Shown here in pieces: positions 23,646 through 54,676 of a stretch of 64,000 nt of DNA (positions are counted from its first letter, which is position 1; the number at the start of each line of letters is the position of its first letter). Position numbers and translations under genes: made by a program. Under the pieces are notes generated by a model that saw only the letters and a program-made list of their open reading frames with translations, did no database searches and was not told where the DNA came from. Source of the DNA: Sipunculus nudus (Eukaryota > Annelida > Sipuncula > Golfingiida > Sipunculidae); assembly GCA_026874595.1 (NCBI GenBank), contig CM049322.1, positions 55,526,386 through 55,590,385 of the forward strand, read 5' to 3'.

Positions 23646-23888
23646 CATATTATATTATTTTACATGGATTGTACAAAAAGTTATAATAACTAATCCAGGC
23701 ACTCTCAATGGCTCCGGTGATGGCGTTCGGTAGTCTGCAGAGTTGGAGGAAACCGGAGTACCCGGAGAAACCACCGGCCTTAGACGGGCAACTACAACCC
23801 ACTCTCATAGCAACGCCGGGGATCGAACCCGGGTCGCCAGCGGACAGAGCCAAGCGTTTTACCACTCAGCTGTCCAGGCCACAGGCGT
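23646..23888 (-). mobile_element. tRNA-derived SINE
   Basis: Read on the minus strand, the element starts with a tRNA-like head. CAGCTGAGTGGTAAAACGC resembles an A box, and GGGTTCGATCCC matches the polymerase III B box about 40 bases later. A body with GGTTTCTCCGGGTACTCCGG and TTTCCTCC follows, of the kind seen in the conserved central domain of several invertebrate SINE families, then an AT-rich tail. Empty sites survive in sister modules (GTCCGTAATTGTGAG at about 13,317; GTCCGTAATAAGAATG at about 22,608). The break lies after CCGT, with CGT on both sides as a possible very short target duplication. Confidence 0.75.
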
Positions 23889-23905
23889 AATTGGGAGGTT
23901 CTACG

Positions 23906-23908
<3 letters not shown>

Positions 23909-23948
<40 letters not shown>
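23909..23948 (+). repeat. (TA)n microsatellite
   Basis: A TA run immediately after the SINE-containing module. Confidence 0.9.
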
Positions 23949-23950
<2 letters not shown>

Positions 23951-24199
23951 CATATTCAAAGCACAGAGTCTTCATGAAAAAATTCTATATTTAAGCAATA
24001 ACGTTCTGTGGACAAGAGTACGCTGCTCTGTGTCAAACAGGTCTGCTACGAACAACAACCACCAACTGTAATGACATACCACGAGGAAATGCTGTATCAT
24101 CCGATAGTCCGAGTGTAATCAGCCTGTAAGACCCTGAGAGGTGTACACTAAAATATAAAAAAAAATGGATATGTGAGGCTGGATTTGACGCTTCATAAG

Positions 24200-27725: not shown

Positions 27726-27757
<32 letters not shown>

Positions 27758-27762
27758 CACCA
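27590..27762 (+). repeat. Compound (TATATG)n / (TA)n satellite tract
   Basis: Seven or eight copies of a GTATAT hexamer, flanked by TA runs, just before the start of unit C. Confidence 0.9.
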
Positions 27763-27838
27763 ACACACACACGAACCTGTTTTAGCCATGCTTTTGTGCA
27801 CACACACACGAAAGGGTCACAATAATGACAGAGACCAG

Positions 27839-27846
27839 TATATAAG
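27839..27846 (+). promoter_or_regulatory. TATATAAG box at the start of unit C
   Basis: GAGACCAG-TATATAAG-ACACA is shared with 47,730 although the surrounding units are well diverged. The unit-start block follows within about 30 bases. Confidence 0.35.
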
Positions 27847-27867
27847 ACACAACTATATTTATTGTGT

Positions 27868-28340
27868 TTTTGCTTAATAACACAATATCATCCGATCTCT
27901 TGCACTCTGATCTAAGCAAGGTATTGTGTGCAGCCTCGTGCCCCTCCGACGAATCGCGCCTACCCGCCGGTCCCAATCGAGCATCTCTCGCAGCCAAATG
28001 GAACATGTGAGGTGCATCGTGAAAATATGAGTCAGTAAAGAGAAGTCGAAAACTCTTATATATTAATTGCGCATGTGTCTACGCGGTCGTAGTTAACAGC
28101 TTATTATATACTATTATTTTCTTTTCAATTAGATAATCGTTAATAAATTTATATGACTCATAAATTATTATATTTTTGATTAACAGATCCAAAACACACT
28201 CAACGTGTTTATGTGCATTACGTATGTTAATTATTTATAAGTATTTGGCTCATCAATTTTACTCATTCAGTCATTATGTCATGAAAAAATTAAATTTATA
28301 CAAAATGCACAGTTATCTCGACATAATTCTGCTATTATGT
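27868..28340 (+). repeat. Unit start block, copy in C
   Basis: It aligns with 1-610 at clearly lower identity: CGATCTCTTGCACTCTGA, AAGCAAGGTATTGTGTGC and AATCGAGCA are kept. It lacks the ATG of the unit A ORF and meets a stop sooner. Confidence 0.75.
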
Positions 28341-28359
28341 TTTCCATTTTTTTTTTAAC

Positions 28360-30490
28360 ATTTCATTTCCTTGAATACGTCGCGACATTGCAGCAGAGGG
28401 AGGAATAAACACCAATGTCATTACGTTTTAGCAACAATCTAATGCACTTCTTTTTAGAGATAAGGAAATAAAATAGGTAGGTAGTTACTTATGTTACTTC
28501 ACTAAACTTCGTAATTCTTCCACTCACGCTCTTTTTCAAACAATTTTGTGGCATTTGTGGCAGACAGCTACGACAGGCAAATCCATCAAATTAGGTAACC
28601 ATTTTTTTCTTCATTACCATGCAATATAAAACAAAATGTCCATACATAGAGCAGAGGCGCCAAGAAGGGATTCCAGTACATAATAATACCCTCACTTTTT
28701 GTTCTCCCATTCATTGAAATAGAACACATAACGTCGACCCATTTGACGCCTCCAATACTGGCCAATAAAAAAAAATCGTTGATTTTTCTTCTCACAAATG
28801 TAAGGTTAAAGTTCACATAAAATTAATTATACACTATTGTGATATTACCGTGCATGTTTTTGGCTGACCAAACATCACGGGTACCCAATAAGCGTTTACA
28901 GTGATGAGATTAACACATTTACCCTGATGAGATTTACAAAGAGCCTAGTGACTATGGCTAGTAGATTATGCAATTAGTATTGGGCCCGTAAGAACAAAGG
29001 CTTTAAGGTACACAAAGATCCAGGGTAATGCAGATGAGTGAATGTTTGAAAGATTACATAAAAAAACAGTTAAATTATAATAATAAATTAAATATTCTTG
29101 TTATTGTGAACAGTTGTAAATCAGAGAGAAGCCTATTGAAGTCTTTTAGTTTAATATGAAATAACAAGAATGTTCAAATTATCATGCCAAATCTTACACT
29201 TTTGATGTGGTCACATTATTTTTAACTGTCCTGACAATTTGTTGTGCATTAAAATACTGATGATCACGCTTCTAAAAATCAAAGAAAGAGAAGTAAATGT
29301 TTTTTTTTTCTAATGAATTTAACTGTTACTCTATTTGTAACACGACAGCATGTGCGGTTATTTTATCACAAAAGGACTTCTGCAAGTTTAATGACTAACG
29401 GCACACATACCCCCCCCCCCCCCACCCCCACTCCTTATGCGTAGCCTTTTGACGTGAGGATGAAGCATGGACTGTCAAATATTCAAAAGTAACTCAAGAC
29501 ATTGTTCCGTTCTCCGTGTTTCGCCTGGGCTTGCAGGGCTCATTTATGACAGTTTCTTTAGTAGCAACGGGTTGTATTCCTCATGTGCGGAATGCAGAAT
29601 TATTGTTTAGAGATTTTAAATGGACCTACACGGCGGTTTGCGTTATTTCTATGTGTTGCCCCTGGGTACCAACAGAAAAATTGTTACATATGGCGATCGT
29701 TTTGCCGCGACTACGCCTTCCGCATGCCAGATCCGCGCATGAGGAATCTTACCTTCTTGATTAACAAAATACGTATGCCGATTTTATACGCATTCCGCAT
29801 CCTGCACATAGGAAATCTTAGCTTTATTATGCAAACATGTTCGACTTTACTTATTAAATACATCCGATAAGCGGAAGTGATTATGTTTTTGCTGGCGTTG
29901 GTTTTGTCTATCCCTTAGCAACATAAGCTTGACAGTTATTTGCGGATTTTTATGAAAAATCAGATAGCTCGTCAATGGTCGAAGGAAAAATGATAAATTT
30001 TGATACGGATAATATTCTTGATCCAGGAATATTTTTCATAGTTACTTATAGTTACATATGAGGGTAATGAGCTGCCTTGTCGGAATTCTGCGCTCTCTTA
30101 GGGCTTTTCTAGTAAATACGGTCGTGCAAACCGCTCGACATTTCTATGACTAGCCATGTCCAATGTCTAACCTTATGATTCAGGACAATACACATAAATC
30201 ATAACATATAGTGCCACTAGAGGTCATTATTGATTATTGGATATCTCCTCTTGCTGACAAAGGAAAGTCACTGCCTCAGAAATTATTTAAGTTTATATCC
30301 AGAATTACCACAGACTCTGCTGTTAATGTAGTAATTGTTCCTTTTCATCATTTATTCGTTACTTCTATCAAAATATCAACAATGGCAGTAATACATCTAT
30401 TAGAATCCGTATGGTATTTTATAACGTTGTTTTGTCTAGCATGTCAGCTGCTACTTTGCATTGGTGTTTATAGGCACAGGTCTGTTTGTT
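28360..30490. other. Unit C-specific stretch without recognised gene
   Basis: Unit A has only about 100 bases at this position. The stretch holds a poly-C run (about 29,410-29,428) and two imperfect copies of a roughly 70-base block (TTCCGCATGCCAGATCC-type at about 29,719 and ATTCCGCATCCTGCAC-type at about 29,791). ORFs at 29,516-29,764, 29,583-29,870, 30,211-30,498 and minus 28,586-28,816 show no family I recognise. It could be an unclassified insertion. Confidence 0.4.
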
Positions 30491-33000
30491 TTATCTAATA
30501 TACACCCTGTGCCGTTCCTTAAGGGCTTTTGTCAATTAACAGTAGATTGCGGGCTGGCTCTGTTGAAAATAATGACACTCCATCCATGTCGCCTTCTTAG
30601 TCATAATATATTTCTGTGGTTGAGCCAGAATGCTAATCCTTGTGACTGATAATACGCTTTTGCAGCCAACTGTTGTTATCGAATTAACTCCAGCTATATC
30701 CTATACAAACAACAGGTATCCATAAACACATCTCAATAGTAAAGCATGATAGACTAAGTAATTACGTTCTTTGAACAAGAAGAATAATGTTTTATGTAAA
30801 ACATGTCTGCTAAGAATAAACAATAACCACTAACTGTACAGTAAGTACAAATCACTTGGTAATGCTTGAGTTTCTCTATTGCCAAGAAAGATTCCCTGAG
30901 TTTTCCTTTTATTATATGTCTCAAGTGTCCTCATTCTGTAATGCTCTGAGAGGCATTTACTGGGAAAAAAATTGTGGATAACTGAGGCAGGATCATGACC
31001 CCGCTTCATTAGTAGGACTTCATTGCGAGTTTGTGTGTCTCCTTGGCTTCACCTGTCTAACCTGATCAACCATATCCGACAGTGAGAAAGTTTTTTGAAT
31101 CTTGTGTATACCTTTGATCATCAAAGGTTTGTATTATATTTGGATGAAAAATAACTCCTAATAATTAGGTGTTCTAACCAAATAAAACCGCTACAGACCT
31201 TACAAACTAAATCGTTGACCTCGTTGAAAATACTTTATAATTTCTTATGGAATTTCTGCATATGCTTTAGAAAAAGGTTCATGAGTACGGACTGACTGTT
31301 AGGATTGTTCCATATTCATTAGTATTCTGTTTTGTTATAAAACGCGATATCTTTGATCCCTGTGTGCTTACATCAATTGTTGATGTCTCAATGCGTTTCA
31401 AAAGGATATAAAACGTATATAGTGAAACGATATAAAAATCACTATTATCTGAGGCATAAAATTATATGGACCGATCGTAAAATAGATATTTAAAATGATT
31501 TACAGTAATTTCCATATGTACAGAAGAATAGCTTTGTTGTTTAAAATAAATTGTTGGGGTCATCACGGTTTCACATTCCTCAATATTTTCTGTGTATTAT
31601 GTCCGGAATTATTGACACTTACACAAACTCATATATATTGCATTTGTTTATAATAATTTAACCGGGTGGATAGTCTGTAGGTCTTTGTGTTCGTGTATGT
31701 TGCTACCGTTTGAACCCGGTACGTTAAGACAAAAAAGTAACAATGGTGAACTCTGTGTGAATGATTGGTAAAATAAAAGCACACATCCACATACAAGATG
31801 TGTACAATTGGTTTTATAATGAACAATTGTTCCGTACCTGCATATTCTGTTTTTAAATGTACGTCGGTATTGAAGCAATGAAGCACAAGCCCACTATCTA
31901 TATGTTATCATTATATTAGTTACATAAACAGAGTTCTTTTGCAGACATTCTCTCCTACGCAGCCGCATATGTTTCAAGCCTTGTTGTTGCCGATGGGCGT
32001 CTTTCCCAAAGGCTGATTTCACCATTATGAGGGTACATTTAATTAAATGAATATTTGCTGCTGCCATTTCTGAATATTTGTTCATAAATTTCGGAAAATT
32101 GTAAAATTAAAATTAAATAACAATTATATATTGTATTGAAAACGGATATCCATGTATACAATCGTACCTCACATTCAGGCATAACCTTGGCTTTTCTTCA
32201 TTATATGTTGAATGACTGCTGCAGATCATAAAGGTGAAATGTAACTTTTTTATTTGCTTACCGAATTCAGTGTGAAAAGTTACCCCGGTCGGCCGAATGA
32301 TAGTTAATTAGACTGAAGGTAACAATCTGAATAAAAAAAATAGCCTATGTCACCGCACAGCTATGACACCGCACGGCGACACGATCGGCGGGGTGACGTC
32401 AGGTGATGTTGGTCACCTAACAAACAAAATAGTGTACATTTCAGTTACCCTTCTGGGATTTAAATTTGTTTGCGTCTATTCTTACTTCACATTTCCGCTT
32501 TCCGTGGTCTGTTCGATTTTAATCAAATTGGGTTAAATTGAGAAATCAGTCAAACTAAATACTCGAAAAGCCTATCATAATATAATTAAATATACATAAC
32601 ATTTAAGATTTACAGAAGAAGCTTACGTCACAAACACAAGCTTCTGTTTTAAGGCATGTGCCGGTTAAATGCTGCATTGACCCTGTTGTGCCGTCCAGGT
32701 TCCGATGTTTACGTATGTTAATATGAAACAAATTATCCACATATGATATATGATAAATAAAATAAATATGATTTTATGCCAATACGCAGAAACCCAAGGC
32801 ATTCGCTCATTTCAGCTATGGCTAGGAAAAAACCCTTCTATATGAAAAGAGTAGTTTATTTTTGGCTTTTAATTTTTATTACAGGTCTATATATGTTCAA
32901 CCGATGTTATAGAAGATATCTATGATATATTGTATGAACAGTAGGTCTATATATGAGCTTGCCTGTACATCCTGTACTAAAACTCGGTGATTTATATATC
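30490..33000 (+). repeat. Paralogous module in C, related to A 900-4,610
   Basis: It carries the same blocks as A1 in order, then skips the equivalent of about 3,500-4,380 and resumes at CAGAAACCCAAGGCATTCG (A at about 4,388), ending with TATATATGAGCTTGCC. By eye the divergence is much larger than between A and D. Confidence 0.8.
31969..32082 (+). pseudogene. Unit C relative of the 37-codon ORF, early stop
   Basis: ATG-TTT-CAA-GCC is followed by a short hydrophobic run with GVFPKG and then TGA after 15 codons. A deletion within the hydrophobic part relative to 2,380-2,493 is also visible. Confidence 0.45.
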
Positions 33001-33016
33001 TCCATTGGACCTGACA

Positions 33017-34144
33017 TTAAAGGCCTACTTCCACCCTCTAGGTGTTTTTGTATATATGAAAGGCATAAACCTACAAATAGAATTGATGTAAAATTACTGA
33101 CATTGGGGAGCTACTATCCGTAATAGGAACGAATATGTGAATATGTGAGTCCTGGCAAGCCCCCTGAAAAAGTTGAGACAGCCCTTGGGACGTGTGTGAC
33201 GTCACAAACAGACCTCGGTTGCGCGTCCACGTGGTTTCAGCAAGACCGACGGGTCTATCTTATCAAGTGAGGCGGAGGAATCAACGTAAGATGACAATGT
33301 CTGAGACACATTAAAGGAGAATAAAGCGGCGAATTTAGATCTGTAGATTTATGGCAACTTCGACATTAGCCTCATGTTATTTTGGGCCATGTATACGTTG
33401 TTAGAAACAGAAGTCGGTGACACAGGCAGCGGCCGCTGCAAGCCAACACGCCAACACTTGTAACAGGTTTGATTCCAATGACGAAGTGACAGGCTGTACA
33501 AAATCGAAGATGGAATCTGTGGGAATTTTAAGGGATATTCTCAATCTGGTGGTTATTATAAAAATAACGAGATTATTCAGCAATATAATATTTATAGCAA
33601 GAAAATGTAGAGTAGTACGAGATGCCGATGGTGATTCTTGACTTGGTCGAGTTTGTTCAATATCGCTCGCGACGCTTTGCAACAAAGTTTGTTGTTGTGA
33701 TAACATTAACAACTTTGTGACTGGTGCTGTGGTGGCATATTTTGATTCTGCAAAAATCAGCTGATAAGCAACTTTGTTTTGTCGTATGAATAAAGCGCTG
33801 GTCCTTTCTTATTTATCATAATTTATACAAACATACTTCATAATCAGAAATGCAAAATTGTTGTTTTGACATTGATAAGCGCTTTTTTTTGTTTAGCAGT
33901 AGTATTACTATATATACTTTTCGTAAAGCGAGTTTTTACTTGGCAGGCCTTACCTCATAAATACATGCAACCTTATAGTACCACACACGGGGCTAGTCTT
34001 AAATGAAGCTTTATACGTACCACACCCATCCCGATGGAGGATGGTACTAATTTTAAGCACTCCCCCCCCCCCCTCCGGCCCATCCTCGAATTATACATAC
34101 ATTTGATTATTCATATAATTGACACTAATTCCTTTTATAATTTA

Positions 34145-34212
<68 letters not shown>

Positions 34213-34927
34213 TAAATTTGAAATATATAATACAGAGCATGAAATTCACATTTTTAGATGAATTATGAAAGAGCCATGTTTCATTATAAAAAAATCACAC
34301 ACACAGTGACATTATAATTTTACACAGTATATATATGTATAATACAGTCCTGTATATAACACTCCACCAAACGGAAAGCCCCATGGCTATTATTAATCTG
34401 TTTTATATTAGCAATGTTATAGAAAAAGCTCTTGCCATACTGCCTCAGCTAGGCTTTATTGGTGCAAATAAAAATTTACAAGCATGATTTTAAGAATAAT
34501 TGCTCTGTTTTTGTTTTGGCTGATGTAAAACCGTTTATCTGGATTTCAGAGGTACTTTGAGTATCTTATAATTTAAGAATTGTGTAATATGAAAAAAAAA
34601 TGTGTCCAGAAACCATACATTTCAGCTCTGCATGATAGCAGATTTAATTTCAAGAAAAGTACATTAACAATAAATTATCATTTAAAATTATACAAAATTA
34701 CCTATATGTTGTCTTTGGTTAGGTTGATCAGTATATGTATAGGTATATTTAGACTAAATGCCTGGGTACTAAATGGCCAGTGTATCATCTGAAGGTTTAA
34801 GTGTAACATCTTTGAGTGCAATATGGCAAATCATACTAACAAGGAAGGAGAGTGACTGCTGAAACAGATTTGGAGTTCTCCTTATGACTGACTTGGTAAT
34901 TGATTTGATATTTTGTTATATATATAT

Positions 34928-34983
<56 letters not shown>

Positions 34984-36427
34984 TACAAGTGTCTATCTTT
35001 ATATATCTACACACACACATATATATATACCATATTTACATGTATACACGTTATATATTCATATTTCATATACAAGTATTACATACTTAAATTTACATTC
35101 TTATTACATTTTAAACACATCTCTTAAATTATATGTATGCGTGTGTGTGTGTGCTGACTTGGCATGGATTTTTTTTTATATATAAAAATGGATAAAACAT
35201 TGCTTATCACATTTTACACAACAAATACACATTTTTAAAACAATATAACATTTTATCATTGCAGATACTTTAAAGAAAACTTTAAAAAAATTTCACACGG
35301 AGTGAAAATATCCCCAACACATATACAACACTAACGCAATTACGAAGCCTATTTTTTTCATATTATTTGGGCACAGAATTAAAATATGCTGAAACGGATG
35401 GTATATATTGTTTATTGTCTGATATTTCAAAAGATTTGATGAATTATTTTGATTATTGTCAACAATAAGGAGTAACGATTTTTACGTGGGTTTATGTTTT
35501 TTTTATAATCCTTTTAATTGTTTCTCCAATGTTAATGCCTTTGCTGAGGCACCTTTACGTGACCCCTTCGGTCATATGTGTCTCGAAACTTGTAAAAAAA
35601 GTCCAAAAATAAAAAATAAAGTTTTTATCATTTACAAGCGTTCAAACACATTTAATAATAAATTGATTGATCAGTTTGATGTTAATAAACCTATACGATC
35701 AACAAGCAGCTATATGTTGGTTGTCATATAACACGTCGCTTGAAATCCTGATACGGCGTCAGTGCAGGCTGCGTGGTGCCAGCTCCCAACGTGCCAAGAA
35801 CGAGTCGGGGAATAACAGGTGCAAAGTGGAAGACTAAGAGATACAGGAGTCATAAAGATGAAAAGCAGCATCATTTCCTAGTTAGCAGCTCACGCATGTA
35901 AGGGATATAGAGTGGCTACAAAAGTGGCAACAAAGGTGAATAAATGTCAGGAAAAGTCCGTCCGCACCCTCATGTCAGTGGCCAAACCTGGGGAATCCCC
36001 TTCCCAGATCATGCCCGGCCGGGTCAAGTTCGGCCCTTCTGTAAAGGAAATCCAGTCAATTTGGCACGAACCTGTGGCTTATACACTTGTTAGATATGAT
36101 TAAGCTCACACCATCACCCTTGGTGTTACTGCTCAACCCGACGACGCAATACTTTGGCATATTTTCCCAAGACCGTGTTATACTCAAGTGATGCCATTAC
36201 AATACCGCCCGGTGTGATCTGGTTGTGACGTCACAATCGCCTTGGTCAGGACGCTTCTGTTTGGCTTGGGGCCCCGGAATGGGCTGGATTACGGGTCTTT
36301 CGATTTAAATTCTATGGTTAAGTGCGCAAAGATTGATTTTATTATACCATAATTTATACATATACATGTAAATGAATAAACCTTCAGTAGTATTTCCTTT
36401 TATTTTTTCATGAAAGTAGGCCTTTAA
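33017..36427. mobile_element. TTAA-flanked DNA transposon or large non-autonomous element
   Basis: The ends are TTAA-AGGCCTACTTCC on the left and GAAAGTAGGCCT-TTAA on the right, giving 12-bp inverted repeats with one mismatch inside a TTAA duplication. A GTGACGTCAC palindrome lies 175-190 bases inside each end (33,196-33,205 and 36,225-36,234). The element interrupts module C where A has (TA)n. TTAA duplications are typical of piggyBac and of Kolobok elements; no transposase motif is recognisable. Internal ORFs (minus 33,401-33,712; plus 35,456-35,731 and 35,912-36,103) are unassigned. It contains (TA)n(GA)n at 34,147-34,208 and (TA)n at 34,917-34,982. Confidence 0.55.
34917..34982 (+). repeat. 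(TA)n microsatellite
   Basis: A TA run with one GATA interruption near its start, inside the TTAA-flanked element. Confidence 0.9.
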
Positions 36428-36902
36428 GTAAACTATATCAAAATAATGATCTATCGCCATATGAGCTAGGTGTAACATATTAAACTAAAAGTATGGCCCT
36501 TTGTTTAATTTTATTCACCAGATCTCATCAAAATTTACAAAATAATAATATTCAATTTAGAATAGGGAAAGCGTTGTAATTACATTTTTTCTTATCTATC
36601 TAGTCAGTTAAGGAATCATGAAAGCCAACCCTTAATTCAACCATTACTTAGTTCAGGTATTACAATAGCGGCATAAGTGCATGCTAGTTGACTGCACAGG
36701 ACACATACGGGTGTAAATTTGTAATTCTAACTGTTATAATACCTGTGCAGATCCAGAAGCAGAACCCTGCGAAATATAATATACCGTTTTCACGCGCATA
36801 TATATATATATATATATATATGTTTATAAATATTTGTATAAATATTTGTATATATATTTGTATATATATATATATATGTATATAAATATTTGTATATATA
36901 TT

Positions 36903-36970
<68 letters not shown>

Positions 36971-37300
36971 GAGCCATATTAGATCATTTCTCTCAGAGCA
37001 GAGTTATTTGCCATCACTCACGGATTAATATCCAGATGTATTTACCGACATGTGAGATTATATAATCACATCTGACAGCAGTAGTTTCATTCACAGTGGA
37101 AAATAGTACAACCTGTACCGGTAATAAAATAAACAAAAATTTTGGTTATGCCGGTAATTGCTAAAAATTATAATATCTTTTTCACGGTGAAAAACTGCCA
37201 TGCATGTTGTTTTCCACTCAGCATGCTAATACGTGCACATTTCCAGAATAAATCCGCGCAGTGTCTTTCTTCAGTACGGTAACTAAGACGTCATAAATCT
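36428..37300. other. Spacer with long (TA)n tract
   Basis: AT-rich sequence with no recognised gene. A 9-base inverted repeat (CTGCACAGG at about 36,691 and CCTGTGCAG at about 36,744) flanks about 45 bases. A long interrupted TA tract occupies about 36,800-36,967, so ORFs on both strands here are Ile-Tyr runs. Confidence 0.6.
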
Positions 37301-37515
37301 GACCAAGTGGCCATGACCGTGATCTTTGACACTTATAAACGCAAAAGGATAATATTGCAAAATTTTCTATGGTGAATTCATCTTGATATCATGAATATTG
37401 GTTGGGAAACCCCGTTATGATATCCATTTAAAATTCATCAAATTAATGGCAAATAACAAAACTTAATGACATTAACTGATTCAAAAATGAATATGATATG
37501 TATCCAGGGAGATTT

Positions 37516-37767
37516 CGTCCATAGGCGTCCGATGGTGGTATAATTATGTGCGCAGCCCTCATCTTCCCGCCTCCGTGGTGTCTCCTTTATTGGCTGTTGA
37601 TTTGCTCCATTGCATGCTGGTACTTGACGTGGAATACAAGGTATTACATAGCCATCTGGTTTGATGAAACAAACCATTGGTATCAAGCAACAGATATAGG
37701 TAAGCTTGCCTAGGCACACTTTGCTTTGATATTTATAGGAGTAAATTGGCATGAATAATAAGTGCAA
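37516..37767 (-). pseudogene. Unit C relative of the GCPxN minus-strand ORF, truncated
   Basis: The minus strand reads YICCLIPMVCFIKPDG, YVIPCIPRQVPACNG, then KETPRRREDEGCAHNYTTI. It then jumps to unrelated residues through a deletion that removes the LKIPL part. A second copy of its first part (FICCLIPWFSLIRPAP) is at minus 40,390-40,484. Codon-position comparison of these two fragments shows no third-position bias. The coding strand is therefore unresolved. Confidence 0.3.
37546..37699 (+). CDS. Exon-like ORF, 51 codons with transmembrane-like segment and phase-1 donor
   Basis: The ATG at 37,546 opens a frame reading MCAALIFPPPWC, then LLYWLLICSIACWYL (hydrophobic), then a polar stretch with WFDETNHWYQATDI and a final G before GTAAGC. 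It ends in phase 1, the same phase as every junction of the gene 400 bases downstream, so it could act as an alternative first exon of that gene. This is an inference from phase and position. It is the relative of 21,450-21,621. Confidence 0.3.
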
Positions 37768-37979
37768 AGGTCTACTAATCCATCAGTAAATAATTGCACA
37801 CAGAGACTTTTTCATGGTATCTAAACATATTTACAAAATACAGTGTATGAGATGTAAAATCTTGATTGTTTTATCTAATATACAACTGACATATAATTAG
37901 AGGAGCAGGTCTCATCAGTCGCTTACAGGCCAAAACCCAAACTCGTTAGATCCGGCTACATAGGTACGATTTCTAACAG

Positions 37980-37987
37980 TATAAATA
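37980..37987 (+). promoter_or_regulatory. TATA box upstream of the four-exon gene
   Basis: TATAAATA lies 114 bases before the ATG at 38,101, which would place a start site near 38,010 and give a 5' UTR of about 90 bases without an upstream ATG in the hydrophobic frame. No other core element was looked for systematically. Confidence 0.45.
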
Positions 37988-38100
37988 CATGATGGGATAT
38001 CTTGAAAACAAATGGAAATGTGTATATTGATTTTCATATTATTTTCATATGATATCTCTATCACAGCTGTTTAAGAAACAAAGACCGTGGAGAGTCAAAT

Positions 38101-38182
38101 ATGAGAAGACTCGTCAGTCTATTAGTCGTTCTTGCCGTCTGTTCATTTTTCATCGAAGGGCAGGAGTGTAAGTTATTCCCGG

Positions 38183-38236
<54 letters not shown>

Positions 38237-39549
38237 ATATATATATATATATATATATGAATCATTATATATACTATGGATACACACACACATATATCTA
38301 TATCAAAGTGTGTATCATACATATCATATTATATTTCAAAGATGAGTACAGCCGTTAATTTTATTTCAAAATTGAACTTTCCGGCGCTTTTGCAGTAAAA
38401 GGATTCGACCATATATAGTAAGTGTCGTATAAGAAATTACTTTTCCTGCTCAACAAGATGAGAGAGTAGAACTCTAAATCTTACGAAGTAATGTTAATTT
38501 GCAGTTTGCCCACCAAAATGCCCACCGATTTATGACGCCGATAATAACGCCGCACCCTCAGGTTTGAAAATTTTCATGGTCTACAAATTAAACCATTTTA
38601 TTTAGCTAAAATAACACTAAATTAAATATAATTGCCTACCCTCATTTTTATTATATGGTGATGGTCTCAGTTTTGTGTGAGACTACCACATTCCGTCCTA
38701 ACAGTCTCACAGTTAACTTTTCCTCACCGTTTCTCTCCATCTCTGAAACGCGTTGGTAATCATGCTCCAGAAGAGTTCGAGCGGTTACATGATTAACACA
38801 CTAGACGATAACTTCACGGCTAACTTTACATTTCATGTAATATTTCTGCAACATGCGTCTTACAAAAAGATTTGTACGTCGATTTAGAACAAAGAAATCC
38901 GGCGCATGTGGTTAAATTATATACTTTGCTTGAATCCCATATACTTTGCCTCTTTTTTGGTCATTTTTTAAATATCACTTTAACTAATCAGTTTTATTTT
39001 AAATAGCACACGAGTCAGTCGTCCAAAGATCCATCGACAATCAAAAACAAGGTATGAATTTTTTTTTTTTTTTTTGCATAGGTGCTTTTTCTTAACTTTT
39101 TGGCGGTTTTGGTATGGTGTGTGAGTCATGTCATGCCTAGCATATGCACCTAATCACGTGATGTAAAATATCTCACTCTGCAATAGCCAATCCTTACATG
39201 GCTAATGTTGCTTTTTAAACGCATGGTGTTTTAAACAAATATTTATATTATAAATACTAAATGACTTATCTTCGAAGTGATATGTATGTGACATGATAAA
39301 TTAGTATACGACTTTATCTTGTATTAACATATCTTATATGACAATATGTAAGTGGGTTACCTAAAATTATAAAGCACAAATTCAGAATATATTTAAAAGT
39401 AACCGATACACATTTAAAGAAATAAGCATTCCATAAAAGCTATGTAATTGTCATGATGCAATCAATTAAACGTACAGTGGAGGCTTTATCTTATGCCTTG
39501 TATTTTACAATACCCAACCTCGTGTATCTCAGAGATATGGCATAGAGTC

Positions 39550-39605
<56 letters not shown>

Positions 39606-40087
39606 TATATGACAATTTCTGAAGATGGTGTTCTTCTGATGAGGCTCAAAAGAAAGTTGCCACGTAAAAAAATGGTACGTGGTACTTTTATGCATAATTT
39701 GCTTATATAATTTTTTAAAAGTGTTTGCATTTTTGTTGCGTGCATATATAAATATAAAGGCTACTATGTCTTAGTCATACAGCACATGGCTGAAAACTAT
39801 AGTTATCTTTTGTTTTAATTTTAGTCGAAACATTAAGAGTTTTCAAGTTGGTGGATTTGCATATAATTGTTTTTTTTTTCTCTGCAGTTTCATTTTTAGG
39901 GTTCAGATTTTCGCGCATTGTATTTGTTCTGTATCACATATTTGGCGCTGTTATTATTTCACACATGTTTTGCATTCAGCTATATCTCCGTATTATGGTA
40001 ATTTCATCCAGTATTACAGCTAACGAGTTTATTTTTGAGGAGGCAGCGTCTATCAACCAGAAAACACCACAAGCCAGCGGCTACTAA
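38101..40087 (+). CDS. Four-exon gene for a short secreted or single-pass membrane protein
   Basis: Exons: 38,101-38,170; 38,505-38,561; 39,007-39,051; 39,888-40,087 (TAA). Exon 1 encodes a classic signal peptide (MRRLVSLLVVLAVCSFFIEG, then QE) and ends at GTAAGT. Exons 2 (57 bases) and 3 (45 bases) are symmetric and encode CPPKCPPIYDADNNAAPS and HESVVQRSIDNQKQ. Exon 4 follows a strong pyrimidine tract and CTCTGCAG. It encodes a roughly 29-residue hydrophobic segment (IVFVLYHIFGAVIISHMFC and on) and an acidic-Gln tail. All three introns are phase 1 and the frame stays open, giving about 123 residues. The weakest site is the exon 2 donor (GTTTGA). An alternative in-frame acceptor for exon 4 lies at 39,825. 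Intron 1 contains (TA)n. The family is not recognised; a two-cysteine, proline-rich mature region is all that is seen. Confidence 0.5.
38189..38258 (+). repeat. (TA)n microsatellite in intron 1
   Basis: A TA tract with a GAAAA interruption, beginning about 20 bases after the exon 1 donor; length changes here could affect splicing. Confidence 0.9.
39554..39610 (+). repeat. (TA)n microsatellite in intron 3
   Basis: A TA tract between exons 3 and 4 of the four-exon gene. Confidence 0.9.
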
Positions 40088-40299
40088 TATAAACTCTTTT
40101 ACAACCCCTACAGCGAGTCTACAGCTACCACCTGAACCTCAAAAAAGACGCAAAAGTGAGAGGGAAAACACTAAAGAAGGAGAAATATTACTTGGTTCAA
40201 CCCACCGTTTGGCGGTAACGTGATCCCAAAAATTAACAACAAAAATATGAAGCTTCTCGACAAATGCTTCCACGTGGGCACTAACTCCGCAAACTACTG

Positions 40300-40305
40300 A
40301 ATAAA
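40300..40305 (+). terminator. AATAAA polyadenylation signal candidate
   Basis: AATAAA lies 213 bases after the stop codon of the four-exon gene. The motif is common in AT-rich DNA, so the assignment rests on position only. Confidence 0.3.
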
Positions 40306-40389
40306 AATACTGTAAAGCTGATGTTATTTCTTTTTTGTTTGTGTTTATTACTTTCAGTAGACGCGGTTGGATTGCCAGTAAGTAGGCTT

Positions 40390-40898
40390 TGAAATTCATA
40401 TGGTATTACACATGGAGCCGGTCTAATCAGAGAAAACCATGGTATCAAACAACATATAAAGGGAAGCAAGCCTAGGCCTGACAATAAGCAAGATTAATAA
40501 GTGCAATGACAAACAAAGACTACAAAGCGTACGAAACTTGTCAAACACACCTAATATACACACACCTAATCTAATATACACCGTGTTTCGAATTAATGCG
40601 TTCAGAGGAAAATATTATTCCATTAGGTGGCAGCAAAACAGTCCGTGTATTGAAAAGAAAAACAAATTAAGAAAAAAAAAATTGCAAAGCAGGTTGGAAT
40701 AGGGTTGTCCTCTGACTTCTCTTGGCAATAGATGCATAAAGAGGTTTATGGAAAAATCGTGCTTTTAAATAAATGTCAATTGACCGTCAAATGTGGGCTG
40801 GCAGTTTTGTAAAAAAGAAACAATTGACCCTCCATCGATTTCGCCTGCTTGGTCTTTCGCTATTCGTGTGTTTGAGCAAGGGTGATAAGTGATAAACA

Positions 40899-40954
<56 letters not shown>

Positions 40955-41303
40955 GGTAGTGGAAGGTAGTAGAAGGTAGTGTTACCCTCCGATGTAAAGT
41001 GCTCTATGGCCTTTGTATTAATTATAAACATTAAACCACAATAAACCTCTGTGCCTTGTTATGTTCCAGTATCGCACGTGTACCCCGCCCAATCCTATTG
41101 TGCCCACGAGGACAATAGGATCAGTGCCAGTCATTAAAATGTCCCCCCCCCCCAATACGCACAAAGCATAATCTCCTAATCTCGTAAAGTCTCGGCTTTT
41201 CAAACCACGCCTATAGCTTCATTCTAACAACATTCACCTGATGATCGGGTCGCATCCCGTGAAACAGACTGTAGTGAATTTACAGTGTTTTTTTTCTCCA
41301 GAG

Positions 41304-41352
<49 letters not shown>

Positions 41353-41958
41353 TTATCATAAATAAAGCATAGAGTCTTCATGAAATAAATCTATATATAT
41401 ATTTTTTAAAATTTATATATGCCGTGCTCTAATACGGGGTAAACTGGGATGACTAGAGCGCCATCAGGATCTGTTGCACACTAATCTCAGCCAAATCTTC
41501 TCTGCGTCGTTAGTCATCAGTTGATCACAAGCCGAACAAACCCCTCCCCCACCCAAGAAGATTATAATATCTAGGATGGTTGGCCTGTTCCTATGATAAG
41601 GGTTAAGTAGTTATTTCTGCTAATCCTGCTAAAACAAAAGACTTAAAGCCCCCAGATCAAACAGTATGAGTTAAATTGGGCCTTCCTTGAGGTAATAACC
41701 TGTCCAATGTACAGTGCCGCCCATTATAATAAAATTTGACTGCACAATACGAGTAGACTATGGCTCCTTGAAAGTGCCCAGCCTTGGGAGGAAATCCTGT
41801 TAAAATACTCATTAACGCCTCAATTCGAGTAGCGTATTTGTTGCAAACTGCTTAGAATGATCATGTTCCAGTACTAAACTACTCAAGTTGAGTAGCTTTT
41901 GGTATATACTACTCGATGAGAGCATCATCAGTTTGGATAGTTTTAATTCATCAGGATA
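40390..41958 (+). repeat. End of unit C: fragments of three module types
   Basis: There is a fragment of the exon-like block (40,390-40,500). A relative of 780-1,010 follows, with the CAATTGAC and GGGCTGGC blocks (40,600-40,830), and a GTGTTTGAGCAAGGGTGAT block (A at about 5,008). (TA)n lies at 40,903-40,950 and at 41,306-41,347. A relative of 13,350-13,945 then follows (GCCGTGCTCTAATAC, GCCTGTTCC, GAGAGCATCATCA). About 40,970-41,300 has a short C run and no recognised gene. Confidence 0.65.
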
Positions 41959-41970
41959 GTGTGTTTATGT
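41959..41970 (+). repeat. LINE target-site duplication, left
   Basis: GTGTGTTTATGT, identical to 47,604-47,615, adjoining the LINE poly-A tail. Confidence 0.85.
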
Positions 41971-42284
41971 TTTTTTTTTCAAGATGTCTCAGAATATTTT
42001 CTTTACCAGTTTGTTTATTTGTTATCTTTTTCATCATCGACATCTCCCGAAACTTAGAATACAAACATTTACATGCATAAGAGAGCAACAATGTTATACC
42101 GTAAATGTAAGAGTATTTCATTTAACTTTTTGAATTATCAAAAATGTATAAAGATAACAATATACGTTTCCACTTTTGCAGATGTATTTCTGACTTTTTG
42201 TGTTTTTCGGCAACATTACGTTCCAATCTTTCTAACCTAATCAAATATTTCATAAATATATGAATAGATGGCGGATTTATCTAA

Positions 42285-45200
42285 TCACGATAGGAAAAAC
42301 AGAACAAACTTAAAAATCAACAATAAAATATCTACAATGATCTTATAGGGGAAATTTTTATAACACTCCATATAAATTAAACCTGGACTCAACCGTGGCA
42401 TATTAATTCCAGCACTCTTTGCCCATGTTTTAAGCTGATTATAAAAGGTTTTACTCACATGACACTCGCAGAATATATGTACTACTGACTCATCTTCAAT
42501 AAAACAATATGAACATCTTTTACCATCCATTATTCGCCAGTTGTACAGTTGTTCATTCACCCATAAAATATTAATAGTACCCTATACTGAAATTGCCGCA
42601 GATACATGTCTAAGGTCGTACAATATACATGACTAACTGCCTCATCCCATTTAAAATGGTCACCTAACAGATTATGTAACCTTTCTTTACAAATTGGTTC
42701 ATATAGCTTTTTATTAATTACCATCGAATAAATAGTCTTAAACTTCACATTTTCCAAATCAATTTTCTTTTCGTTTACCATCACAATGTTACTCTTCACT
42801 TCAAAGGATTCTATTTCATCTGGAATATTATTTAAAAATATTTCTTGTTTCCATTTCGCGGGTATCGCTTTCTGTACTGATAGCCATGGTAAAAACGTTT
42901 TAATATACATGGGATTATCTATTGGAACCAAATCTTTTAAATCTTTAACCCTACCATTTTTGTTAAACATCTGAAAGACGTACTTTATACCTAGGTTAGC
43001 TATATGCATATTAAAAATTGGTCTTTTGTCGACTCTGATACATTTATTGTTCCATACTTGTTGTAAACAAATATTAGCAATTGATTCAGGATTACACATT
43101 GTATATGACGCCCATGACTGCAAACAGTGAAAATAAAAGGTAGGCAAATTTTTGTCAATATTAGACGGATCAAAATTTGTATCAACATATCTTAAACCAC
43201 CAATGCCTCTCAGATATAAGTTTGGTCTGACTGTATACTTTGTTTCTAATAAATTCTTTAATCTTACTATCCACATTACTCTTTGACTTTAAATGATAGA
43301 AGCTATATCCGGCAATCCTATGCCGCCACTTTCTGTCTTACCAATCAATACTTCATACATGATTTTAGGCCTTCTGCCGTACCATATAAAATCAACAACA
43401 CAACTTTTTATTCGCTTAACAAACTCTCTCGGTGGTTCAATTATATTAACGACATATAATAATTTTGAAATACACATGGATTTCAAGAGAATATTTCTAC
43501 GAAAAATCGTTAGAGATCTAATGTTACACATACTGAGTGTCATTTTCATTTTGTCGTAAATACACTCAAAATTAAATGAATCGGATAACTTCAGGTTATA
43601 TGTGTGCCATATTCCTAATATTTTTATGCCATTTTTATATAAATTAACCCATTTAAAATCTTTGGTGCCAAGTGTATATTCTTTGTTTTTTCCCATATAG
43701 GCAGCTTCGCATTTATCATAATTAATCTCTACTAATGAGACTTTCCCAAATTTTTCCAATATATCTATAACCGATTGAATAGACTGAAAATCTTTAAGAA
43801 AATGTGTTGTGTCGTCAGCGAATAGACATTGTTTAATCTCATAGCCGTTGATATCTATGCCTCTAACCGAACTGGAATGACGAACAAGTATTGCCAAAAT
43901 TTCAATGACAAACAGGAATAAATAAAGGGCCAAAGGATCCCCCTGCCGGGTTCCCCGTTCTAATTTAAAATAGCCAGTAGTGTATCCATTGTTTATCACA
44001 CAGCTTTCCACGTCAAAGTGTAACAAACGAACCCAGGTTAGAAAATCATGTCCAAAACCAAATCTCTCCAGTGTGGCGAAAAGAAAATTTTAATCGATGG
44101 AGTCAAAGGCCGCTGCGAAGTCCACAGCAAAAATAATAGTGTTTCTGTCTTGTAATTTACAGTATTCTAAAATATCAGAAATAAGACGATTAGTGTCAGA
44201 TATTCTCCTGCCTTTTATAAATGCGCTCTGATCTTCATGAATTAGTTTTGGAAGAATTGTCTGTATTCGTTTAACTAATACTTTACTTAATATTTTGACA
44301 TCAACATTTAATAAACTTATTGGCCGCCAAGATGACAGGTGTCTATTGTCCTTGCCTGGTTTCTCTATCAAAGTTATAACGGCTTGTTTTTGACTTGGAG
44401 TTAAAGCTTCATCTCTGAAACACTCATTAAGACAATTAAACAAATCGTCACAAATTATATCAAAAAAGGTTACATAAAATTCTTTCGGCAGACCGTCGTT
44501 CCCCGGGGTTTTATTATTTTTCATATATTTAATGCTATCAATATATCATTCTTTGTAAGTGTACCTTCTCAGCTTAAAATGTCATTTTCAGACAAACGGG
44601 GAACATTGACTTTAGAAAGAAAATCAGAGCATTCACTCTCACTGGTATCTGTCTTTCTGGAATACTTTTGTTTGTAAAACAATCTTAATTCTTCCATAAT
44701 TTCTTTGGAGCTTGTTAACTCTTTATCCGACTTAATTAATTTCTTAACGGTTGTTCTCGTTTTGTTTTTCCTTGCCATATTTAAAAAAAAAACTTAGTAT
44801 TTCGTTCCCCTTCTTCAAACCATTCAACACGTGATCTTACTATTTGTCCTGCATTTAAGTTTTCATAATATTCCTCAATTTTCTTTTTAATTTCATTATA
44901 TATTGTTTGACTTAATTTTTTGTTTCTTGATAGATTTAACTCTGCATTATACAAAGCCTTTTCAAGGTTTGACAGCTCCTCCCTCTCTTTCTTCCGCTTT
45001 TCTTTAGAGAATTTAATAGCAAATTCTCGTATTCTAAACTTTAAATATTCCCACCATTGTTTTGCCCCCATATCATTTCTATCCTTGTTCCTCAAACTAT
45101 TTACGTACTCCTTAAATTTACTTATAAACAGAGGGTCCTTTAATAATTATATATTAAGTTTCCAATGTGAAGGCCCATATTCTCGTTCTGGTATCGAGTT

Positions 45201-45923
45201 AAAGTGACAAACAACAGGTGAATGATCTGTCAGAATAGCCGGAGCAATCTTTATATTTTAACATGGGCATTCAGCTCACTATTTAAGAATATGTAATTAA
45301 GTCTGCGCTGCCACAAAGGGGTTTTTGATCTCCAAGTGTATAGACGTTCATCTGGGTTCCTTATCCTAAACAAGTCAATTAATTCAAACGCTGACATCAT
45401 ATTGTTAATCAGTTTTACAGATTTAACTTTGGTTTTAAAGCTTGTCTCGTCTGCATCAAGCTCATTCAGACAAACATTAAAATCACCTCCCCATATTACC
45501 TTCATTGCAGAGTCAACTTGCAATGAATTAATTTTTCTCATATATGTTGGTAAAAACGAACTTGCTCTGGCTCTGTATTAGGTGCATACGTATTTATAAA
45601 TAAAAAACCATGGCCCTCAACAAGAGCTTTTAGTATTATGTATCTACCATTAATATCAACGTGTTTACTTATTCCTTTAAATTCTAAATTCTTTCCAATC
45701 AGGGTTATTACACCACGAGATAAATTCGTCCCGTGAGAGAAAAAACTAACTCCCTTCCACTGTTTTGTCCATGTTGTTATAACACTTTCTGTACTGTGAG
45801 TCTCCTGAAGAAAAATAACACTGTTGTTTCCTCCTTTATCCAATAACCAGTTGTACATTTCTTGTCTTTTTTCAGTCTCCCTATTCCCCAGACATTTAAC
45901 GTTAATACTGAAAAATTAAACAT
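42285..45923 (-). pseudogene. LINE ORF2 (endonuclease and reverse transcriptase), several breaks
   Basis: The apurinic-type endonuclease is seen as FLQETHSTE, INTYAPN, GGDFN, YTWRS and TDHSPV (45,216-45,230). The usual D in the RxDY motif reads N here. The linker has SRVEWFEEGERNTKFFF. The reverse transcriptase has NNKTPGNDGLPKEFY, SWRPISLLN, DQSAFIKGRRI, VDFAAAFDSID, GTRQGDPL and FADD. The C-terminus has a CCHC cluster, CSYCFIEDESVVHIFCEC. Breaks include probable frameshifts at the start codon region, at about 45,540, 45,260, 44,550 and 42,558, and in-frame TAA codons at 45,147, 44,090 and 43,289. It would have nicked DNA and primed reverse transcription at the target; it cannot now make a complete protein. 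Confidence 0.85.
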
Positions 45924-46436
45924 AAAGATTCGGCTTCAGTTATCTTGGATATTTTCATGGCCCGCCAACATATATTACGTACAGAATCACACACATAAGT
46001 ATTCGGTTTGTTAACAATATCTATCCCCTTGACCAGGTACATCTGAGATAATCTCAAAATATCAACTTTTGTCGTGATAATACAGCAACTGAAGAATATA
46101 TCCATGCTTATAGTAATAACAAAATTATATATCAGCATATATAGCACTTGGCGCTATTCGATAAAAATTAGATAATGATGATTATTTTAAAAAAATAAAT
46201 CAGTGAATAAAGAATGCGGGAGGTAAAGGTTCAGTGAGAATCAAATGTCACCCGCATCCCTTAAAGAATAGATATAAATACACTGATGTTTTATTACCGA
46301 AATGTGTGGATATAATATGTTGAGACCGGCTCCGTTTTTTTTATATATATGATTACTCCTCACAATAGCAATACGGGAATATTGAATACAAAATGCAATA
46401 TGATACAGGCAGGCACAAATATTCACGGAGAACGAC

Positions 46437-47357
46437 CTAACTTTCTTGTCCTGGTGTCGACGTTAGTTGTGGATTGGTCTGCATGGCCTCTGAAAATAGC
46501 TTTGGCGGATTTTGTTGTAACACCTGCACCCATGAATAAAATTTACCGCTGCTGTTGAATTTATGAACTTTTGACCCGTGATCCCTAACACACACCTTTC
46601 CATCATGTGTCCAACAGTCTGTTATAAGTTGCTCTCTTTTCATTCCGAGAGCAGTGTGTAGCATTCCTACTCTGGCTCGAGTGAGGTCTTCGTTGATGTA
46701 AATCCCCCTAGACTCCTCACCTGCCATTTTCAGATGGGATTTCCTTTTAAGTAGAGCTACCTTTGTTTTGTGAGACAAAAACTTTACAAGTATTGGTCTG
46801 TATTTACCTTGTGGTGCAGGTTTGCCAACTCTGTGAGAGATATCAATATCGTTGGGCTGAATGTCAACATTTAACAGTTCTCTGGCCATGTTTATAACAA
46901 GTTTAATCTTCCTCTGTTTTTTCTGCCATGTGTTTGTGATTCTGAGAGAAGTGCGTCTTGAGTATTGTTGTTGTCGGTCCAGGCCATCTTGCATTTCACT
47001 CAGTTAATTTTCTAAATTGTCCACCTTTCTTGTTAGCTCCTGTATATGGTGTCCATAACATTTCATTCTTTCCTCCACTGCTGCATCTATAATACCTATC
47101 AAAGCTGATTTAGTAGTTTCTGACTGTAAAGCTGTTTCTAAAAGATGTGTAAATTTCTGAGCCTCATCAATAACTAGTATAGGTTCTGTATCTGATTTCT
47201 TTTCCTTAGTATTTAAGCTAGTCAACAGGTATTCCTCTGATGAATCTAAATTATCCATATTGTAACGTTTTCTTTCCTGAAAACTTACAGAGCTACCTCC
47301 TGAAGAGTCACTAAGACCTCTTTTCTTTTGGGATATTTTCTGAGAAAGACCATACAT
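46437..47357 (-). pseudogene. LINE ORF1 (RNA-binding protein), one nonsense codon
   Basis: The N-terminal half is polar and ends in a probable coiled coil (EERMKCYGHHIQELTRKVDN). It is followed by an in-frame TAA at 47,004-47,006, after which the same frame continues with a QQQYSRRTSLRI segment. Next come DISHRVGKP, RPILVKFLSHKTKVALLKRK and GIYINEDLTRAR. The YSRR, HRVG and P-I-x-VKF...K motifs are those of the RRM and C-terminal domains of L1-type ORF1 proteins, which coat LINE RNA and act as nucleic-acid chaperones. Apart from the single nonsense codon the frame is intact for about 305 residues. Confidence 0.8.
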
Positions 47358-47737: not shown

Positions 47738-50136
47738 ACACACCTTTTTATTTATTGTGTTTATGCTCTGTAACACAATCCTATCCGATCCCTTGCACTC
47801 TGAAGTAAGCAAGGTATTTTGTGCAACCTCGTGCTCCTTGGACGAATCACGTTCACCAGCCGGTCAAAATCGAGCACCCCCTCGCAGCCAAGTGAAAAAT
47901 ATGAGATGCATCGTCAAAATATTTGACAGTAAAGGGAAGCCTGAAAATAGTATGGTCATATATTTTTTTCCGCAGGTGTCTACGTGATCGTAATTAATAC
48001 TATTTTTTTTATTATTTTTTATTCAATAATCTTTTATAAATCCATATAACTGGTAAATGATTATATTTTTGATAAACAAATACAAATAAACACGTTGAGT
48101 GTGTATGTGCATTTCGTGTGTTAATTATTTATGAGAATGCTATCCAAAATAATTAAAAGAGACACGCTATATATTATGAATAAACATAAAGGGTTTACCA
48201 TTTAGATTACCTTTTCACACTGATAAGTAACATGACCAGTACAGGTATAAGTGGTATTTAAGTCATTAATCTTACTCATCTTACTCATTCAGCACTTGAA
48301 TTATGTCTTGATATAATTAAATGTATACAAAATGCTCAGTTTCTTGACAAAATTATGCCTGCTACCTATATAGTAATTGCGCAAATGGTTAATTAGACAT
48401 TGAAGCATTCTTAAGTATTTCATTTTACCGAGATATTCATTTACTCTAAAAGAACAAATCCAAGTTAGCCCAAATCGGTATCAACATCAAAGATAAGCTG
48501 ATGCGTTTGATGAAAATATGTTTGTATCAGGTTTCAGAAAACCAGTCCATGTATTGCAAAAAAAAATAATAAAAACCGATTCAAAGCAGATCCGTCTGGG
48601 ACGGAATAGGAATGCTCTATGACTTCTCTTAACAATACATGTAGATATATAATGAGGTTAATGGACATATCGTGTTTTAAGGGCAAATGTCAATTGACAG
48701 TTAACTGCAGGCTGGCTCTTTTGAAAAAAATATATTCCCTCCATGTCGGCATCTAGGTCAAAATCTATTTATGTGGCTGAGCCAGAAAGGTAATCCCTGT
48801 GACTGATAACAGTATGTGCCGACAACTGTTGTTAGCAAATTCACTGTAGCTGCTTTCTAAACAAACATCAGGTTTCCACATATACATGATGATAACGCAA
48901 CGTTAAAGCATGATGACTAAGCAATAACTTTCTATGAATGGATTACTGCTTTGGGTAAAACATGTTTGCTAAGAATAAGCAAGAAGCACTAACTGTACAG
49001 TAAATGGAATACACTACGTTATGCAAGAGCTCCTGTTTTGAGAGAAAGATTTTCTGAGATTTCCTTTTATTACAAGTTCCCAGAGTCCTCTATCTGTGAT
49101 GCTCTGAGAGGTATTTACTTGAATTTTTTTTTTTTTTGATATCTGGGGCAGAATTAAGACTACGCTACATGAGTAGGACTTCACTACGAGTTTGTGTGTC
49201 CCTTGAGCTTCACCTGTGCTGATTGCAAAACCCATATTTGAAGAAAATACGTAAACGTTCCCTTTTTCCGGCAAGCTTTCGTTCCCTTTAACGCTCGATC
49301 AACCATATCCGACAGTGAAGAGGTTTCTAGAATCTATGGTAGGACTTTGAGCACCAAAGGTTTGTTCATATGATTTCGGTGGAAAAATAACAAATAAGAA
49401 CTGTAGGTGTTCTAGCCAAATAAAAACGGCTACAAACCTCAAAAACTAAACCATAAACCTGGTTGAAAACACTTTACATTCATAATGGAAATACTACATC
49501 TGTTTTGTACGGGGGTCATGATTACGAATTTATTGTTCCATATTCTTTAATATATTTTTTTTTTTTGATAAAATGCGATCTCTTGCTTACATGAGTTGGA
49601 GATGTCTCAATGCGTTTCAAGAGGATATAAAATTGACTGCGCAGTGAACCGTTAAAATAATCACTATAATTTGAGGCGTAAATTTACATAGACCGGTTGT
49701 AAAATGAATATTTAAAATGCTTTACAGTAATTTCAATTATGTACAGAATAATGGCTTTTTGTTTGCAATAGACTGTTGCGGTCGTCACTGTTGCACATTC
49801 TCCAGTCTTCTCTTTCTATTATGTTCGGAATTAATGACACATATACACACACATATACATTGCATTATCATGATTAAACCGGACGGATGGTCTGTATGTC
49901 ATTGAAAAAAAAGTAACAATAAAAAACAAATGATTGGTAAAATAGAAGCACACATCCACTTACCAGATGTGTACAGTTGGTTTTCAACTCAACAATTGTT
50001 CCGTACCTGCATATTCTGTTCTAAAACGCACCTTACTATTGATGCAATGAAGCATCAGCCCGTAATCTATATGTTTTCATTATATTAGTAACATAAACAG
50101 TGTTTTTTGCGTACATTATATCCTACGCAGGCGCAT

Positions 50137-50250
50137 ATGTACCAAGTTAGAATTGTCATGTTGTTGCTGGTGGGCGTCTTTCCCAACGCTGATATCACAA
50201 TTATGAGGGTACATAAAATTGAAAGAGTATTTTGCTGCTGCCAGTTCTGA
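50137..50250 (+). CDS. 37-codon ORF with hydrophobic N-terminus, unit D copy
   Basis: This is the unit D counterpart of the ORF at 2,380-2,493, with no difference seen across the coding stretch. Identity between two copies this similar overall is weak evidence of constraint, because the surrounding non-coding DNA is equally conserved. Confidence 0.25.
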   Translation: MYQVRIVMLLLVGVFPNADITIMRVHKIERVFCCCQF

Positions 50251-52363: not shown

Positions 52364-52406
<43 letters not shown>

Positions 52407-54626: not shown

Positions 54627-54676
54627 ATAGACCAGTCCTATGAAAAGAAACGTTCTTTCTCATGAGACTGGTCTAT
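54627..54676. repeat. 50-base near-perfect palindrome, unit D copy
   Basis: Same sequence and symmetry as the element at 6,891-6,940. Confidence 0.85.

Follow-up and report, generated by a model that had tools for sequence, protein, structure and literature searches.

A small tandem gene family in Sipunculus nudus that probably encodes short secreted peptides and may end in retroelement-derived sequence

We analysed a 64,000-nucleotide (nt) stretch of the genome of the sipunculan Sipunculus nudus (C17:55526386-55590385 of a 1.43 Gb assembly; this whole stretch is called the window), and conclude that a gene starting at position 38101 is probably real and probably belongs to a small lineage-specific family of short secreted prepropeptides with a putative exonised-element tail. 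An earlier note on this DNA had proposed here a TATA box, a signal peptide, two mini-exons and a terminal exon that together would encode a short secreted or membrane protein; its observation is partly confirmed and its interpretation partly supported. Exons 1-3 go beyond chance, because in two diverged paralogs, L009 and L012, none of the five splice sites is lost and the reading frame is maintained; the 3′ end that the note proposed is built from fragments of a dispersed repeat.

The gene lies on the plus strand and, as modelled with two mini-exons, spans ~2 kb overall. The TATA box is present as proposed (TATAAATA, 37980-37987, ~114 nt 5′ of the ATG). Exon 1 (38101-38167) encodes the predicted signal peptide MRRLVSLLVVLAVCSFFIEGQE plus 1 nt and ends in phase 1 at a GTAAGT donor; the exons lie where the earlier note placed them, except that this donor begins at 38168, so that the junction given as 38,170 is off by 3. 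Exon 2 (38505-38561, 57 nt, FCPPKCPPIYDADNNAAPS) contains a Cys-Pro-Pro-x-Cys (CPPxC) motif, and exon 3 (39007-39051, 45 nt, AHESVVQRSIDNQKQ) contains Gln-Arg; both are symmetric (phase 1-1), as claimed. Exons 1-3 form a single reading frame with three phase-1 junctions, and joining them to the proposed terminal exon (39888-40087) keeps all junctions in phase 1 and yields 122 residues, for which roughly 123 had been predicted. The family had not been recognised from the letters, and profile and structure searches agree: the 122-residue protein has no Pfam family above the cut-off (Sar8_2 only, E 0.045, within the exon 4 part), a 70-residue variant has no Pfam match, and the single match of the predicted protein in the PDB has E 0.62. 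The literature was searched by keyword, which cannot establish the family as unreported.

At least 11 related loci are present in the assembly, all on C17 and in two clusters (48.66-48.70 and 55.34-55.63 Mb); the number is a lower bound, as the first genome search scored 40 of 196 first-look candidates. Six loci are near-identical, namely the window's own copy (WIN) and five others at 98-99% identity with a spacing of 46.1-47.7 kb, and five are diverged (L009, L010, L011, L012 and L013). A query with the promoter and exon 1 found 10 loci (11 rows) and added L013; a query with intron 2 and exon 3 likewise found 10 loci (11 rows), L011 among them; L010 is counted as one locus although parts of two copies are joined in it. 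DNA queries for more distant members gave nothing beyond the 11 loci, and protein queries were weak (one did not recover L012 and another recovered L012 only), so that distant family members may have been missed. A candidate distant member at C6:36796376 was rejected, since 6 kb of sequence there contained only the dispersed repeat described below. Across exons 1-3 of the six near-identical copies, 1 of 169 columns is variable, and the change is synonymous; the gene has probably been amplified not long ago as part of a 46-48 kb tandem unit.

The arrangement of the surrounding DNA was also recorded. Window positions 1-16314 recur at 47758-64000 in a tandem segmental duplication whose unit measures ~47.7 kb; the long matches between the two are 96-99% identical, and diverged partial copies (~71-89%) occupy 19743-24191 and 27726-41971. 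At L010 (2113-4836), parts of two copies of the gene's 3′ half meet in intron 3, an arrangement that unequal exchange among the tandem copies would produce. A 76 bp direct repeat of 74% identity (37640-37715 and 40402-40477) stands on both sides of the gene block, and its downstream member also matches DNA 5′ of the gene in L009, L010 and L012.

All five splice sites and the frame of exons 1-3 are intact in eight loci: the six near-identical copies, L009 and L012. Protein identity is 76% and 58% in the two diverged loci, and the probability of keeping sites and frame in a neutral simulation was 0.079 for L009 and 0.0032 for L012; the simulation took its substitution and indel rates from introns 1 and 2 and, as a simplification, treated all base substitutions as equally likely. 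Indels within exons 1-3 of L009, L010 and L012 measure 6 and 3 nt (L009 exon 1 is 6 nt shorter, in frame), and none of the 15 indels in introns 1 and 2 of these loci is a multiple of three. Exon 1 is open and followed by its donor in L009, L010 and L012, and these loci also keep the hydrophobic core after MRR, as judged by hydropathy only. Two cysteines are found in exons 2-3 of the window gene, L009 and L012. The TATA-box site is identical in L009 and reads TATAAGGA in L010, TATTAATG in L012 and TATGAAAA in L013; because of these variants we do not regard the TATA box as kept across the family. A segment 5′ of the ATG (38022-38068), possibly promoter or initiator sequence, is well preserved in L009, L010 and L012, and also in L013 despite its broken gene.

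Exon 1, judged by its substitutions, looks constrained: in the coding frame the synonymous proportions (pS) for the window gene paired with L009, L010 and L012 are 0.24, 0.40 and 0.31, the nonsynonymous proportions (pN) 0.10, 0.21 and 0.16, and the order is reversed in both other frames. The counts behind these values, and behind the dN/dS (nonsynonymous to synonymous rate) ratios of exon 1 given below, are all small. Exon 2 is the fastest-changing segment. Among the five distinct loci, its divergence equals or exceeds that of introns 1 and 2 in all ten pairs (one tie); by uncorrected tests, four pairs reach p<0.02 (WIN-L009, WIN-L012, L010-L012 and L012-L011) and the remaining six have p 0.08-1.0. 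In the two sister pairs, which are closest by intron distance and mutually independent, exon 2 divergence is 0.21 (WIN-L009) and 0.25 (L012-L011); among 448 overlapping 57-nt intron windows, 0 reach that level for WIN-L009, 22 for L012-L011 and 0 for the sum of the two. The CPPxC motif is kept in all five distinct loci, two of which are broken. In exon 3, four of the five distinct sequences (L009, L010, L011 and L012) have Lys-Arg where the window and its five near copies have Gln-Arg, which suggests a putative processing site that the amplified copies lack.

The 3′ end proposed for the gene falls in a dispersed, multicopy repeat (39871-40327). A retroelement-like fragment antisense to the gene (39871-40013, minus strand) contains the acceptor and hydrophobic stretch of exon 4 of the earlier note, and a second fragment of the same repeat in sense orientation (40008-40327, plus strand) contains its C-terminus and stop, in the element's own frame. 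A query with 39860-40400, for which 40 of 46 candidates were scored, listed at least 42 matches; nine of them belong to the family, and the others are scattered over many chromosomes. In all 16 copies examined outside the family (L050-L065, on ten contigs), 40008-40327 is matched in full or in part, and a full or partial match to 39871-40013 adjoins it on the opposite strand (in two pieces in L060); they are pieces of a larger repeat, and the longer matches, as detailed for 3 of the 16, agree at 82-97%. A 637-residue open reading frame (ORF) of one such copy (P0001, from L056) aligns by tblastn to window positions 40010-40270 (E 6e-14, 49% identity); the alignment follows the exon 4 frame, and stops interrupt it past that exon. 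The C-terminus SITANEFIFEEAASINQKTPQASGY of the earlier model is thus a fragment of element protein, and, because exon 4 lies wholly within the antisense and sense fragments, the hydrophobic segment comes from element DNA in antisense orientation. Of the earlier description, a short, probably secreted protein is supported, and the hydrophobic or membrane part is not.

Pfam and PDB searches of the element ORF gave no significant match; we take it to contain reverse-transcriptase-like and GIY-YIG-like motifs, and treat a Penelope-like label as an unconfirmed lead. A second fragment of the same dispersed element lies in the window at 18945-19289 on the minus strand (58% identical to P0001, with stops), and is presumably the GIY-YIG-like part. 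The repeat pieces at the 3′ end of the gene stand at the same place in WIN, L009, L010 (there within the part from its second copy) and L012, so that the insertion is probably older than the split of these loci; L012 has ~2 kb extra before 39872.

Homology among the diverged paralogs stops at 40400, and up to that point the window offers 15 phase-1 acceptors with a reasonable pyrimidine tract (39075-40394). The AG is kept in WIN, L009, L010 and L012 at six of them (39888, 39907, 39980, 40012, 40020 and 40114), all within the element pieces; the last exon is therefore either element-derived, with 39888 or 39980 as the best acceptors, or not shared. The first candidate is the terminal exon of the earlier note (39888-40087), which has the best polypyrimidine tract. 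In L009 and L010 its reading stays open through the hydrophobic stretch and breaks near the end, and in L012 the frame is displaced by 2 nt; pS/pN in its frame is 0.13/0.14, 0.03/0.10 and 0.23/0.21 for L009, L010 and L012. Given its repeat origin and the lack of a coding signal in its frame, we reject exon 4 as a family-specific exon, and the terminal exon is the part of the earlier model that is not confirmed. The second candidate (39980-40023), with acceptor TTTTGCATTCAG in phase 1, would encode AISPYYGNFIQYYS before a stop; similar tails are found in L010 and L012, and the stop is lost in L009. A possible poly(A) signal, AATAAA (40300-40305, plus strand), lies inside the sense repeat fragment and is kept in L009. 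Other acceptors were discarded: a downstream terminal exon at 40358 (VDAVGLPVSRL stop) has no AG in L009, L010 or L012, and the intron 3 acceptors at 39082, 39187, 39533, 39783 and 39825 have lost the AG in at least one of these loci, the L012 alignment around 39825-39872 being interrupted by the 2 kb insert.

We propose that exon 1 supplies a signal peptide that would direct secretion, and that exons 2 and 3 encode an N-terminal peptide, whose C-x3-C (CPPxC) loop is probably closed by one disulfide, together with a segment that in most paralogs contains a putative Lys-Arg processing site. Exon 2 would be the fast-diversifying part of a gene amplified recently within its tandem unit. As retroelement debris was probably in place at the 3′ end by the time the family split, transcripts probably terminate in an exonised element piece, from 39888 or 39980 onward. 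Judging by the evolutionary pattern only, the likeliest role would be that of an expressed, secreted effector at a changing biological interface, such as defence, glandular secretion or reproduction. A fuller version, which we hold only tentatively and consider rather doubtful as a whole, is that this is a hypervariable tandem family of secreted peptides with symmetric mini-exons, that two retroelement fragments in inverted arrangement gave rise to its shared C-terminal exon before its radiation, and that selection or exchange diversified exon 2.

Several observations weigh against this interpretation, which is drawn from the DNA sequence of one species' assembly. Of the five diverged loci, three are broken: in L010 the acceptor AG of exon 2 is displaced by 2 nt, out of frame, and in-frame skipping of exon 2 is conceivable; in L011 exon 2 measures 53 nt (4 nt shorter), is out of frame and contains stops, and no exon 1 counterpart was found; in L013 exon 1 is cut short, the match ending at 38144. 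By the Nei-Gojobori method, exon 1 has dN/dS values of 0.39-0.45 in the three window pairs and of 0.75, 0.64 and 1.41 in the other three. For exon 2 the ratio is 0.53-1.81 and exceeds 1 in only one of six pairs; synonymous change is also raised in exon 2 of the L012 pairs, so that copy-to-copy exchange may explain part of the divergence, and selection and exchange are not separated. Exon 3 has no consistent purifying signal and a weak coding signal, and it is the amplified copies that are without the Lys-Arg site. At the 3′ end, acceptor 39888 is also present in a repeat copy elsewhere (L029), and its conservation may therefore be inherited rather than selected; the 39980 candidate has pS>pN in 3 of 3 pairs, but with 1-2.5 synonymous changes, and another frame behaves likewise; and the AATAAA site reads AGTAAA in L010 and AATAAG in L012.

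A credible, though less probable, alternative is that the gene is real through exon 3 and that its true terminal exon lies elsewhere, either unshared beyond 40400 or in intron 3, the repeat being intron or 3′ flank. The repeat origin of exon 4, its lack of a coding signal and its shifted frame in L012 fit this alternative, as does the absence of AATAAA in L010 and L012; it has to contend with the end of paralog homology at 40400 and with the nine failing acceptors among those listed for a pyrimidine tract in the window, all the non-repeat ones included, which are not common to WIN, L009, L010 and L012. The exact model of the earlier note, with a hydrophobic C-terminal segment from 39888-40087, overlaps with our preferred interpretation as one of its outcomes and is unlikely: the strong polypyrimidine tract, the AG kept in four full-length loci and the hydrophobic stretch open in L009 and L010 speak for it, but the exon is built from repeat fragments, antisense and sense, its reading goes out of frame in L012 and breaks towards the end in L009 and L010, and pS does not clearly exceed pN.

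It is also quite unlikely, in our judgement, that the loci are a decaying pseudogene set multiplied passively with the tandem unit, in which exons 1-3 would be relics. Such decay would account for the three broken loci, for the repeat debris at the 3′ end and for the TATA box not kept in L010, L012 and L013; against it stand the eight loci that keep exons 1-3, the low neutral probability for L012 and the pS>pN of exon 1. Very improbable is a chance assembly of the exon chain in non-coding sequence. The earlier note had argued that chance agreement of all junctions is unlikely, an argument that is weak alone, since a first exon that encodes a signal peptide and ends at a donor is not uncommon: the window contains 6 signal-peptide start-donor pairs (5 start codons), and 20 shuffles gave 0-8 (mean 3.2). 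It is the paralogs that support exons 1-3, through the conservation of sites, frame and CPPxC and through a fast exon 2 flanked by slower introns.

Other features of the window and assembly were noted in passing. A broken long interspersed nuclear element (LINE) occupies 42557-47003 on the minus strand, where Pfam finds RVT_1 in 43289-44089 and in 44090-44545; two further frames without a Pfam match above the cut-off (42557-43288 and 46437-47003) are assigned to the LINE by position and presumption. One copy of a repeated block (~9011-9124, with others at 2312, 20759, 24353 and 31760) can be read as signal-peptide-like (MLLVITVITLLVGVFSKRW...); judged by eye, this reading does not survive as a single open frame in the other copies that were read. 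Elsewhere in the assembly, C60 and C123 carry bacterial-looking cytochrome oxidase genes (two examined of 11 COX1 matches) that point to a symbiont or contaminant; among the 80 loci kept from the contig collection, the C60 protein has relatives at no more than 52-58% identity. A further COX1 match, on C5, is a 51-position piece with a stop.

With six near-identical, two diverged intact and three broken copies in one genome, the family provides a compact test case for the source of fast mini-exon change (selection or exchange) and for the possible recruitment of retroelement DNA into a terminal exon; it also illustrates that an exon chain assembled by eye can begin correctly and finish in transposon sequence. 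The following comparisons refer to parts of the cited papers. Schistosome micro-exon genes (MEGs) have a signal peptide, very small symmetric exons and a mature part with dN/dS above that of the signal peptide (PMC4350168); the window gene likewise has a predicted signal peptide and small symmetric exons (57 and 45 nt, phase 1-1), but only two such mini-exons are seen, and whether they would make up most of the coding region, as in MEGs, depends on the terminal exon. According to that paper MEGs are apparently confined to platyhelminths; the likeness considered here is one of architecture. Aphid cassette effectors (KQY/KHI) similarly join a conserved signal-peptide region to divergent sequence from miniature exons (PMC7495047), and bicycle genes (PMC9168663) are grouped with them here as a close known system; this likeness, too, is one of architecture. 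These effectors belong to an insect lineage and spread many mini-exons over very large genes (37 exons over 45.7 kb in KQY1a and 10 over 21.8 kb in KHI6), whereas the window gene has two within ~2 kb. The mussel CRP-I family consists of small secreted precursors with a conserved signal peptide, a variable mature part and dibasic propeptide sites (PMC10138031). Its cysteine array (C-C-CC-C-C) differs from the two cysteines of the window gene, both in exon 2; the combination of conserved signal peptide and variable mature region is found in the window's family as well; at the dibasic position, KR stands in L009, L010, L011 and L012 and QR in the window and its five near copies. Finally, Penelope-like retroelements are reported to show inverted partial repeats beside a sense copy (PMC3846280), and the proposed tail of the window gene likewise consists of an inverted fragment beside a sense fragment.
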